Assembly: GCA_002372735.1 (NCBI GenBank)
Contig: DFIE01000023.1
Coordinates: 1,746-10,590 of the forward strand
DNA length: 8,845 nucleotides
Direction of reading: 5' to 3'
DNA from: Clostridiales bacterium UBA3705
GTDB taxonomy: Bacteria > Bacillota_A > Clostridia > Oscillospirales > Oscillospiraceae
In this document: in pieces, positions 1 to 5,542 of the stretch
Numbering within the stretch: the first letter of the stretch is position 1
How the letters are laid out: each line of letters begins with the position of its first letter
The notes under the pieces: generated by a model
The model's input: the letters and a program-made list of their open reading frames with translations, nothing else
Told to the model about the DNA's origin: nothing
Databases searched by the model: none
Translations under genes and position numbers: made by a program

Positions 1-297
1 CATGCCGTGGTTGTCCCAGCCGGGGGTGTAGGGGGTGTCGTAGCCCCGCATGGCATAGGAGCGGACGATGAAGTCCTTGAGGGTCTTGTTCAGGGCGTGG
101 CCCATGTGGATGTCGCCGTTGGAGAAGGGAGGGCCGTCGTGCAGCACAAACCGGGGCTTGCCGGCGTTCTTCTTGCGCAGCTCGGCGTAGACGTCGATCT
201 TGTTCCAGCCCTCCAGCATGGCGGGCTCCCGCTGGGGCAGGCCGCCCCGCATGGGAAAGGCCGTCTTGGGGGTGATGATGGTGGTTTTGTAGTCCAT
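1..297 (-). CDS. ileS: Isoleucyl-tRNA synthetase, N-terminal part (runs off left edge)
   Basis: Class I aminoacyl-tRNA synthetase that charges tRNA-Ile with isoleucine in the cytoplasm. Only the first 99 residues are present; the reading frame is open at base 1. The visible part contains [20 protein letters not shown], which includes the class I signature HIGH as HMGH (residues 64-67), followed by TPGWDNHGM, the typical IleRS stretch after it. The ATG at 297-295 is chosen because AAGGAG (312-307) sits 9 bases upstream and the N-terminus aligns with known IleRS proteins. It lies downstream of a T-box leader whose specifier reads as an Ile codon, which independently supports the identity. An S23-type gene and its flanking repeats now separate the leader from this start. 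The ribosome binding site lies outside the inserted segment and appears intact. Confidence 0.97.
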
Positions 298-332
298 ATG
301 ATTTTGCTCCTTATTCGCAAGGTTTTTGTATG

Positions 333-367
333 AATTGAGAAGTGAGAATTGAGAAGTGAGAATTTGA
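333..367. repeat. Terminal inverted repeat, ileS-proximal arm
   Basis: Plus-strand bases 333-367 match the reverse complement of 733-767 at 29 of 35 positions. Mismatches are at arm positions 10, 14, 18, 30, 33 and 34; position 30 would be a G-U pair in RNA. The arm contains a perfect 14-bp tandem repeat of GAATTGAGAAGTGA (332-345 and 346-359) plus a partial third copy, GAATT, to 364. Confidence 0.85.
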
Positions 368-370
368 GGA

Positions 371-396
371 GATTTTCAAATTGCCATTTGAAAATC
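371..396 (-). repeat. Perfect 11-bp-stem hairpin overlapping the S23 stop codon
   Basis: GATTTTCAAAT (371-381) and ATTTGAAAATC (386-396) are exact reverse complements separated by a 4-base loop. The stop codon of the S23-type gene (397-395) lies within the hairpin's edge. No T-run follows on the minus strand, so it does not look like an intrinsic terminator. An mRNA-stabilising or processing structure is more plausible. It lies inside the inserted element, next to the ileS-proximal inverted repeat. Confidence 0.8.
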
Positions 397-733
397 AGGA
401 TTCTTTTGTGGTTTTTACAATGCTGGCAAGAATGCGTCTGATTTCGTCGCAGTCCTTATAGATGGAATTGAACTCCCGATCTGACAAATAGCCTGTTTCG
501 TGAAGCAGTCTGAGCCAATAGGCTGTTTCCACCGCTTCTTTCAGCGCAATGGAGTTTTTAGACAGAAAATCAGCCCGGCTCTGGCCCTGCTTTGCTTCGA
601 CGACGTTTGCACCGATGCTGCAGCCGGATCGTTCCAGCTGGTTTGAGAGAATATGCTCCCTTCTCCGCTCGCGAAGGATACGGCACAGCCGAACGATGCG
701 CACGGAAAAAGTGAAGGATTTGGCTTCAATCAT
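395..733 (-). CDS. Four-helix-bundle protein, S23/IVP (23S rRNA intervening-sequence protein) family
   Basis: A 112-residue, all-helical, basic protein. The core ILSNQLERSGCSIGANVVEA, followed by QGQSRADFLSKNSIALKEA, then ETAYWLRLLHETGYL and a final IRRILASIVKTTK, is the recognisable pattern of the four-helix-bundle family first known from proteins encoded in 23S rRNA intervening sequences. The length is normal for the family and the frame is intact. The function of the family is not established; an RNA-binding or nucleic-acid partner role is often suspected. The ATG at 733-731 abuts the inner edge of the right inverted repeat. The nearest Shine-Dalgarno-like sequence, GGAG at 750-747, is inside that repeat with a longish 13-base spacing. 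The gene has lower GC than its neighbours and lies between the ileS T-box terminator and ileS. Transcription therefore probably depends on T-box read-through, unless the element has its own promoter, which I do not see. Confidence 0.9.
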   Translation of the reverse strand: MIEAKSFTFSVRIVRLCRILRERRREHILSNQLERSGCSIGANVVEAKQGQSRADFLSKNSIALKEAVETAYWLRLLHETGYLSDREFNSIYKDCDEIRRILASIVKTTKES

Positions 734-767
734 TCAACTCTCACTTCTCCATTTTCAATTCTCAATT
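733..767. repeat. Terminal inverted repeat, T-box-proximal arm
   Basis: This is the partner of 333-367. On the minus strand it starts with AATTGAGAATTG immediately after the terminator's CTC (770-768). With the preceding bases it forms a 14-bp palindrome, TTCTCAATTGAGAA (772-759). It contains GGAG (750-747), the only plausible ribosome binding site of the S23-type gene. Pairing of the two arms in RNA would hide that site. Confidence 0.85.
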
Positions 768-808
768 GAGAAAAACGTCCCTGTCTCAGTAAGAGACAGG
801 GGCGTTTT
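768..808 (-). terminator. T-box intrinsic terminator
   Basis: On the minus strand AAAACGCCCCTGTCTC pairs with GAGACAGGGACGTTTT around the loop TTACT, with a single C-A mismatch, and a run of five T (775-771) follows. The helix can be extended outward because GAGG (813-809 region) pairs with TCTC at 771-768, burying the T-run in the stem. Its 5' arm contains CGCCCCT (804-798), the strand that the antiterminator would use, so the two folds are mutually exclusive as in a transcriptional T-box. Confidence 0.88.
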
Positions 809-1012
809 CCTCTGCGGTACCACTCTTTTTGCCGCGGGGGAAGCCCACGCGGCCGCTTTCTCATGGGGTAACGGCCATGACTCGTCCCGGTCTACTGGCA
901 AAAGGCGGTTCGGCGGGATGCTCGGGGAGGATCTGCGGGCGGGTGTGCCGCTGCCTTGCACCAACCGGCAGCTCTCTGAGGGCAGGGGCCTGCTCGCCTG
1001 TTCCCTTCAACG
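768..1012 (-). promoter_or_regulatory. T-box riboswitch (tRNA-Ile type), leader of ileS
   Basis: A leader RNA that reads tRNA charging: uncharged cognate tRNA stabilises an antiterminator and lets transcription continue. On the minus strand the parts occur in canonical order. First comes the Stem I base AGAGAG and hairpin GCTGCC-loop-GGCAGC (loop GGTTGGTGCAA). Next is a specifier region in which ATC (932-930) stands directly before CTCCCCGAGC, the position of the specifier in related leaders. Then come AGTAGACCGGGACG and the CCGTTAC stem II pseudoknot core, and the T-box GAGTGGTACCGCAG. The bulge TGGT (822-819) would pair with an ACCA acceptor end, as expected for tRNA-Ile with discriminator A. 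The T-box departs from the usual GGGTGGTACCGCG at two places, leaving mismatches in the antiterminator helices. The 5' boundary is approximate. No convincing promoter is visible, so it may be transcribed from within or upstream of divIVA. Confidence 0.92.
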
Positions 1013-1024
1013 CATTGGCAGGAT

Positions 1025-4577: not shown

Positions 4578-4617
4578 CGGCAGGGCTGTCGGATGCAGTT
4601 GAAATCCGGCAGGGCTG
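4578..4617. repeat. Pair of 11-bp direct repeats between miaA and hfq
   Basis: CGGCAGGGCTG occurs at 4578-4588 and again at 4607-4617, 29 bp apart, in the 82-bp gap after the miaA stop. The remainder of the gap holds the hfq ribosome binding site and no clear promoter or terminator. Spacing and function are unexplained; it may be chance in GC-rich DNA. Confidence 0.45.
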
Positions 4618-4618
4618 C

Positions 4619-5542
4619 TCAGGTTGTTTTTTTCCCCCCCAGCAGGGCCAGGGCCGCTGCCAAGGGGTCCGGGGTCTCGTCCCGGAGGATCCAGTGGATT
4701 TGATCGTTGCGGCGCAGCCATGTGAGCTGTCGCTTGGCGTACCGGCGGGAGCCCTGCTGAATTGCCAGCCGGGCCTGGTCCAGGGTGAGCTCCCCCCGCA
4801 GGGCGCGGACAATCTCCTTGTAGCCGATGGCCTGCAGGGCGGTGGCCCGGTCAGGGATGCCGGTTTGCAGCAGGCGGGTCACTTCCTCTACCAGGCCCTG
4901 GGCAAACATCTGATCCACCCGGGCGTCGATGCGCCGGTAGAGCTCGGCCCGGTCCCCATAGGTCAAAGCCAGCCAGAATGGTCGGTACTTGGGGGGCTTG
5001 CGCCGGGTTTGGGCGTTGTGGTAGGAGATGGGCAGCCCGGTCTGCAAAAAGACCTCCATGGCCCGGATGATCCGCTTTTGGTCTGACAGGTGCAGCCGGG
5101 CGGCGGTTTCGGGGTCCGCATCCAGGAGCATATCGTAGACAAAGCCGATGCCCTTCTCCCGGGCCGCCTGCTCCAGCAGGGCCCGCTCGGCAGAGGGCGG
5201 GGCAAACTCCCGGCCCTGGACCAGGCTGTCCATGTACAGGCCGGTGCCCCCGGTGATCAGGGCGGTTTTGCCCCGGGCCAGAATGTCCTGCAGGATCTCA
5301 TCGGCCATGGTCACATAGCGGCTGACCGAGAACTCCTCCCCGGGGTCGGCCACGCTTAGCATATGGTGGACCACCCCGTCCATCTCGGCGGCGGTGGGCT
5401 TGGCGGTGCCGATGTCCATGCCCCGGTAGACCTGCATGGAGTCGCAGGAGAGGACCTCCCCGTCCAGGGCCTTGGCCAGGCCCACCGCCAGGGCGGTCTT
5501 GCCCGAGGCCGTGGGGCCGGCCACACAGATAATTTGGTTCAT
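4619..5542 (-). CDS. miaA: tRNA dimethylallyltransferase MiaA
   Basis: A 307-residue enzyme of normal family length. It transfers the dimethylallyl group from DMAPP to N6 of A37 in tRNAs that read codons starting with U (the i6A modification), stabilising codon pairing. The P-loop GPTASGKT is at residues 9-16. SCDSMQVYRGMDIGTAKP (32-49) carries the catalytic Asp (D34). GGTGLY (98-103) supplies the conserved Thr, and the C-terminal part has IGYKEIV and the RRYAKRQLTWLRR tRNA-contacting helix. The ATG at 5542 has AAGGAGG 5 bases upstream and follows the mutL stop by 16 bp, so translation is probably in one operon with mutL and hfq. Confidence 0.97.
   Translation of the reverse strand: MNQIICVAGPTASGKTALAVGLAKALDGEVLSCDSMQVYRGMDIGTAKPTAAEMDGVVHHMLSVADPGEEFSVSRYVTMADEILQDILARGKTALITGGTGLYMDSLVQGREFAPPSAERALLEQAAREKGIGFVYDMLLDADPETAARLHLSDQKRIIRAMEVFLQTGLPISYHNAQTRRKPPKYRPFWLALTYGDRAELYRRIDARVDQMFAQGLVEEVTRLLQTGIPDRATALQAIGYKEIVRALRGELTLDQARLAIQQGSRRYAKRQLTWLRRNDQIHWILRDETPDPLAAALALLGGKKTT

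Follow-up and report, generated by a model that had tools for sequence, protein, structure and literature searches.

The window studied here, a stretch of 8,845 nucleotides analyzed at its full length, contains ahead of ileS an S23 gene placed between two inverted arms, each of them built from tandem copies of a seven-nucleotide unit, and comparable period-7 arrays were found beside S23 genes elsewhere. The layout recurs with a separate 7-letter word in each copy, which points to a type of small genetic element that has been little described. On balance, the evidence favors the view that the unit at 332-767 belongs to a widespread group of small elements resembling RAYT/REPIN systems, in which a pentameric S23 protein would bind the heptad arms of its own element, and of which the intervening sequences (IVSs) of 23S rRNA would be the rRNA-resident members. 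The window unit is an IVS-like S23 element located outside rRNA, and the heptad rule is its new part.

The minus strand of the window has the order DivIVA, T-box leader, terminator hairpin, 435-bp unit, and ileS (Table 1). The presence of an S23 gene between inverted 35-bp arms ahead of ileS, which a preliminary description had reported together with the higher AT content of the unit and its lack of a transposase, is confirmed. The arms 333-367 and 733-767 match at 29 of 35 positions, versus 16-19 in 15 mononucleotide shuffles of the region 301-800, which rules out a chance inverted repeat as their source. The GC content is 45.5% in 333-767 versus 61.1% and 65.5% on either side. No transposase-sized ORF appears within the unit in the ORF list, and S23 is the sole family match there, with no nuclease, transposase, or other catalytic domain. 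The reported IVS-like layout in an mRNA leader was also found, the unit being located between the T-box and ileS, outside any 23S rRNA gene, and no rRNA match was obtained in the window. The RF00230 match that marks the T-box is below the family gathering score of 93, and nothing in the window reached that score; PADLOC gave no match for a defense role. The arms had been described as terminal inverted repeats, but they are not fixed repeats: both are tandem arrays of a 7-nt unit of the AATTGAG type, and the word differs from locus to locus. Lag-7 arrays with a score of at least 9 occur only twice in the window, and these are the two arms. The predicted RNA fold pairs both arms around the S23 ORF (MFE -181 kcal/mol, z -7.2, the terminator contributing in part), a pairing that would suit release by RNase III or synapsis of the arms alike. 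Palindromes comparable to the one that overlaps the S23 stop adjoin S23 arms in relatives and are present in the loop of the S23-less doublet of the relative L001 (read by eye).

Table 1. Coordinates of features in the window.
Feature	Position	Strand	Basis
ileS (isoleucyl-tRNA synthetase), 5' part, truncated by the window edge	1..297	-	start read from sequence
Downstream (3') heptad arm	332..367	-	strict lag-7 array 332-362
Palindrome GATTTTCAAATGGCAATTTGAAAATC, overlapping the S23 stop	371..396	-	read by eye
S23 / 23S_rRNA_IVP four-helix-bundle gene, 112 aa, intact	395..733	-	profile matches and model
Upstream (5') heptad arm	733..767	-	strict lag-7 array 739-767
T-box leader terminator hairpin; the 5' arm begins immediately past it	768..812	-	inverted repeat and fold
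T-box leader of ileS	795..1019	-	RF00230, 72.9 bits, E 8.9e-16
Site close to the end of miaA, ahead of hfq; L001 has an S23-less heptad doublet here (~2041-2140), absent from the window	4604..4640		comparison with L001

The protein encoded by the unit matches Pfam PF05635 (E 2.7e-25, 89.1 bits, cut-off 33.8) and NCBIfam TIGR02436 (E 4e-30, 104.2 bits, cut-off 24). Its AlphaFold2 model (pLDDT 97.6) agrees in fold with 2RLD (TMq 0.94), and it resembles the Avd structures 4DWL, 8UB7, and 8UBE weakly (TMq 0.70-0.80, Foldseek E-values above 0.1). A sequence profile search of the PDB returned 2RLD and 2GSC (XCC0516 of Xanthomonas campestris), with five chains per entry, a figure that counts chains and not assemblies. 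Avd is a pentamer. The five chains of 2RLD and 2GSC may correspond to a pentamer that is functional and in which each subunit would account for one heptad. The S23 proteins of the window and of L001 share 91% of their amino acids, while identity at third codon positions is 73%; judged from this comparison, the window S23 looks to be under constraint.

S23 genes were searched in the genus, family, order, and phylum of G001, the genome of the closest relative, and were found in 16 of 23, 26 of 120, 94 of 197, and 57 of 299 genomes, respectively; these searches overlap, the fetched loci are part of the listed places, mostly the better-scoring ones, and the sample also drew on plasmids, a phage record, and further regions. 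The census set comprised 187 full-length S23 genes, all flanked on either side by no fewer than 200 nt, and an array was counted when a lag-7 run score of at least 9 was reached within 300 nt of S23. Arrays were present upstream of 104 genes, downstream of 82, on both sides of 76, and on either side of 110, the loci not being independent (38 pairs were flagged as same-site). For lags 5, 6, 8, and 9, either-side arrays were present at 2, 2, 5, and 5 of the 187 genes. In a FastTree phylogeny of the S23 proteins, read by eye, most array-less genes fall in one derived clade: arrays accompany 106 of 114 genes outside this clade and 4 of 73 inside. The nine loci of the derived-clade type whose flanks were inspected (L007, L008, L010, L021, L022, and L030-L033; two of them, being partial genes, do not belong to the 187) have no heptads and show instead short hairpin-repeat arrays, with words such as AGTTATATT, TGATGT, and ATGAAGCG around small stem-loops.

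Of 31 S23 genes on plasmids and viral contigs, 29 had arrays on one or both sides (some are duplicates, and 11 loci already belong to the 187). The array-bearing ones come from Cyanobacteria, a Bernardetia (Bacteroidota), Treponema saccharophilum, Chlorohelix, and eight of nine viral loci; the array of Azospirillum is downstream only, and none was found beside S23 in Gemmatirosa or in the viral locus L302. Viral contig L303 contains two tandem S23 genes, each flanked by a different heptad. In several records S23 is located between cas2 and cas1, between cas6 and cas4, or between restriction-type genes, and S23 at cas loci is mentioned in PMC3936711. With the score raised to at least 12, arrays numbered 194 in 261 kb near S23 (0.74 per kb) and 62 in 385 kb away from it. 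Around genus genes fetched regardless of S23, 14 arrays were counted in 171 kb of S23-bearing genomes (0.08 per kb), and the same style of count gave 3 in 81 kb (0.04 per kb) in genus genomes without S23 matches. Arrays are also present in the draft genomes G013 and G018, in neither of which S23 was found.

The two arms of a locus resemble each other in their heptads (similarity 0.79, n=76, versus 0.50 across loci). The word is AATTGAG in the window and G001 and AAGTGAC in G002; others are AGGCAAT, AGTCACT, AGGGATC, and AGGCACC. Three S23 genes of G001 have three heptad words, and a fourth S23 gene of this genome has no heptad. These three words within one genome indicate that the heptad word belongs to the element and not to the host, and they disfavor a host-wide factor fixing it. 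Heptads and proteins covary: across pairs from different sites, the more alike two S23 proteins are, the more alike their heptads tend to be (rho 0.267, the maximum of 500 permutations being 0.074), a correlation that can derive partly from shared descent. A motif of about NNARTKR is common to 143 arms in register (3.38 bits versus a maximum of 2.69 in 20 permutations), and it points towards the gene in both arms, falling to 2.59 bits with the downstream arms on the gene strand; a fit of 186 arms settles in another register (about AAKKNAN, 3.33 bits, with no null run), which leaves the exact motif unsettled. The most frequent arm length in the 186 arms is 32 nt, and the most frequent number of contiguous heptad-spaced cores is five, with five in 67 arms, four in 29, and six in 32. 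Five cores in both arms occur at just 14 of 76 two-arm loci, and long arrays also exist.

A dispersed family of small S23-carrying elements, as the preliminary description had proposed, was largely borne out by the census and by comparisons between loci. Heptad-bearing S23 genes that are at least 70% identical form 56 pairs, of which 38 differ in their flanks and 18 have a flank in common; the flank test sees ORFs only, misses tRNA-flanked sites, and may overcount unlike flanks, and at least one of the 38 pairs was misjudged. This is L073/L087, which was dropped as evidence of dispersal, both loci preceding a tRNA-like gene (by eye). Heptad-bearing pairs were tallied separately because the 305 of 453 S23 pairs that do not share a flank (92 share one and 56 are unjudged) include the array-less clade, to which most of the 40 listed pairs belong. 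In L068/L223 and L077/L217 (2 of 69 listed pairs), DNA similarity stops on each side at the outer edge of the arm, with unlike flanks. Similarity stops inside the arms in L110/L109, and in most of the remaining listed pairs it either stops close to the ends of the ORF without reaching the arms or continues through shared flanks. By tblastn, the flanks of L068/L223, L077/L217, and L110/L109 are unrelated, save one 25-residue match (E 2e-4) in L068/L223. No target duplication was noticed by eye in the closely compared arm-to-arm pairs.

Near-identical copies at unrelated loci, which had been proposed as a check, did not appear: the highest identity in a judged unlike-flank pair is 0.92, and the near-identical pairs that were tested proved to be rRNA copies or a plasmid segment. 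The candidates L166-L168, L170/L171, and L175/L176 were rejected as recent transpositions, being 23S rRNA copies (Rfam on L166, L170, L175, and L176), and so were two Calothrix NIES-22 plasmids, which have a 3.6-kb segment in common. In genome G288, L173 and L174, two contig starts with S23 genes of the array-less clade that are 87.6% identical, have a common 5' side. In the fetched loci, S23-less arrays away from S23 genes look like the S23 arms of the locus in which they lie (0.69 versus 0.54, n=60), and for 22 of 67 such arrays an inverted partner is located no more than 150 nt away. L001 also contains, at 567-1130, a GIY-YIG ORF (E 2.1e-14) framed by inverted GTCATTGCGAGCCAGTG-type repeats and absent from the window (plus strand, ~5554), which is another small gene-in-repeats insertion.

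The ileS leader site could be read in 19 relatives and is polymorphic. S23 is present in G001, G002, G019 (where the search flagged one in-frame stop), and G022 (where a contig end cuts the gene), and it is truncated in G005. Only arrays or array remnants are found in G016, G023, and G006, another ORF framed by heptad arms in G003, and other sequence in G009, G015, G010, G021, and G017. Relatives with an empty site between the T-box and ileS, the search for which had likewise been proposed as a check, are five of the 19 (G018, G007, G013, G014, and G012). The G003 ORF (L142:2464-2799, 112 aa) has no Pfam match, and its two arms are unlike words. Site states are scattered on an ileS tree of weak support, to which the window contributes just 297 nt. 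The window ileS shares 95% of 99 residues with that of L001, and S23 identity is close to this value for the ileS N-terminus, which would fit vertical descent; the ileS-site S23 genes of the window, G001, G022, G019, and G002 may be orthologous and vertically inherited, and the window's own copy may be old. The preliminary description had set against its own reading the case of one S23 gene with its arms at this site in all relatives, diverging vertically, and no copies elsewhere; vertical inheritance at the ileS site would amount to half of that case.

Two further sites vary among relatives. The RNase J site could be read in 17 genomes; three of them (G008, G007, and G001) have S23 there, each with its own word, and in all three the 5' arm is placed upstream of a promoter-like stretch that is also seen in S23-less relatives (by eye). 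This position upstream of an apparent host promoter indicates that arms can enclose host sequence, unlike a simple cut-and-paste unit. The gyrB-gyrA gap, viewed in 14 of 20 loci, contains S23 in G022 and G005, a broken S23 in G011, and arrays in G013, G017, and G007. In the same gap, G019 and G003 (L249 and L259) have weak Y1_Tnp-like ORFs below the Pfam cut-off, accompanied by GC-rich inverted repeats in a RAYT-like manner.

S23 units are also located inside stable RNA genes. In seven genomes (G382, G441, G506, G384, G598, G425, and G539) S23 lies within 23S rRNA (RF02541 in the first three), and in G374 it lies within RNase P RNA on the same strand (RF00010, L120:1229-2003, 775 nt versus a model of 367 positions). 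A lag-7 array with a score of at least 9 was found on at least one side in all eight genomes; in G382, G441, and G506 this applies to one side only, the opposite side scoring 6.0-7.5. One 23S copy of G506 has near its 5' end an S23-less hairpin of two inverted heptad arms and a short loop, and the other copy does not; beyond the hairpin, the copies show 3 differences in ~2,476 aligned positions. Since the stem beside the hairpin also differs, gene conversion from another lineage could explain the difference between copies. In L175, a 23S rRNA of G506, a heptad hairpin interrupts the S23 gene of the IVS, and L176, the other 23S copy, has a second heptad hairpin located elsewhere.

In RAYT, REP, and REPIN systems a gene is flanked by inverted short repeats, and gene-less repeat pairs occur elsewhere. 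The S23 elements are similar in that the gene lies between inverted repeats and gene-less array pairs occur in some of the fetched loci, and the Y1_Tnp-like ORFs of G019 and G003 add to the likeness. They differ in that S23 has no HUH or other nuclease domain, the unit has no Y1/HUH transposase gene, and the repeats are heptad arrays with a word per element, whereas REPs are single palindromes. A fixed-TIR transposon would leave near-identical copies and target duplications; among the judged S23 pairs no near-identical copies in unlike flanks were found, and by eye no target duplication was noticed. The four-helix fold of S23 is similar to that of Avd of diversity-generating retroelements, and a kinship between PF05635 and Avd is noted in PMC10053308; no reverse transcriptase was found among six window ORFs compared with Pfam, and no template repeat was noticed in the window, which spans just 8.8 kb. 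Like the IVSs of 23S rRNA, the window unit has its S23 gene between stem-forming inverted arms. PMC4990558 reports heptamers beside the S23 gene of the Coxiella IVS, and the seven S23 units inside 23S found here are similarly accompanied by heptad arrays on one or both sides. The window unit differs by its place in an mRNA leader and by its conserved S23, as against the reductive evolution reported there for the Coxiella gene. Heptameric repeats are described in PMC4679880 and PMC4692102 for Beggiatoaceae (TAACTGA), Xanthomonas (GGGAATC), and Nostoc, and they share period-7 intergenic arrays with the S23 arms; PMC4692102 gives 70 close convergent heptamer pairs for Xanthomonas campestris pv. 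campestris. A word search of these texts returned none of the S23-related terms sought, which for PMC4679880 included S23 and 23S themselves. Beyond the Coxiella IVS, no description of S23 with heptad arms was found in the portions of the literature consulted, which does not establish its absence from print.

The unit could instead be an immobile regulatory device of the leader, in which the arms would pair in the ileS mRNA, RNase III would cut the stem, and S23 bound to the 5' heptads would tune its own translation and that of ileS in a TRAP-like manner. We consider this unlikely. The predicted pairing of the arms, the apparent purifying selection on S23, and its presence ahead of ileS in the window as well as in four relatives fit such a device, but the empty sites in relatives and the occurrence of S23 units beside numerous other genes and within 23S rRNA do not, and arm pairing by itself leaves the equal units within one arm unexplained. 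Moreover, among 97 long-flank heptad loci both neighbors are co-directional with S23 in 40 and neither in 25 (by a longest-ORF proxy, 12 locus ids being left out as known or presumed RNA-resident), indicating that S23 units are not generally tied to one position within a transcript.

Rather improbable, in our judgment, is that the ileS unit is the decaying, vertically inherited relic of an old insertion whose family is now immobile. The truncated S23 of G005, the arrays or remnants of G016, G023, and G006, and the broken S23 of G011 at gyrB-gyrA would be expected of a relic; however, the window S23 is intact and constrained, and array pairs differ between the two 23S copies of G506 and between the window and L001. 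We disfavor, as very improbable, the explanation that the heptad arrays are simple sequence repeats produced by slippage or recombination, beside which S23 genes merely gather or are tolerated. Arrays do exist away from S23 and in genomes without S23 matches, their length varies, and PMC4692102 reports heptamers as over-represented in Xanthomonas and Nostoc. Against this stand the density near S23, the elevation of period 7 alone, and arms that are inverted, matched, and provided with a common motif and polarity.

Under the RAYT/REPIN-like reading that we prefer, S23 would assemble into a pentameric ring that reads the heptad word of its own element, about one heptad per subunit, which would give five cores per arm. 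The S23-bound arms would mark and pair both ends of the element, either at the level of DNA or in the RNA stem produced by their pairing. Units running from arm to arm, whether they contain S23 or are reduced to arm-loop-arm doublets, would spread rarely into intergenic gaps and stable RNA genes, with host enzymes lending the catalysis, much as REP doublets relate to RAYT, and the units residing in rRNA would be the classical 23S IVSs. The ileS-leader element would now be inherited perhaps mostly vertically, would be transcribed together with ileS under T-box control, and would still yield a conserved S23 protein. Counting against this reading are the lack of a nuclease or transposase in the unit, the absence of near-identical S23 elements in unlike flanks among the judged pairs, the small share of pairs whose similarity ends at both outer arm edges, the arrays in draft genomes where S23 was not found, the arms that enclose host sequence at RNase J, the unlike arms around another ORF in G003, and the scarcity of loci with five cores in both arms. 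A broader claim, which we advance tentatively and hold to be somewhat doubtful, is that S23 proteins act as pentamers that read a heptad code, every S23 lineage recognizing and co-evolving with its own word, repeated five times per arm, and that S23-heptad units form a distinct class of small mobile elements, full and gene-less, in several bacterial phyla, to which the 23S IVSs and at least some heptameric intergenic repeats would belong or from which they would derive.

To our knowledge, no function is established for S23/IVP genes and no origin for the intervening sequences of 23S rRNA, and nothing is known to make the heptameric repeats found between genes. Matched heptad arms link the three, and through them each S23 protein gains a predicted target. 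Should S23 prove to bind in a word-specific manner, it would provide a small protein whose repeat code can be read.
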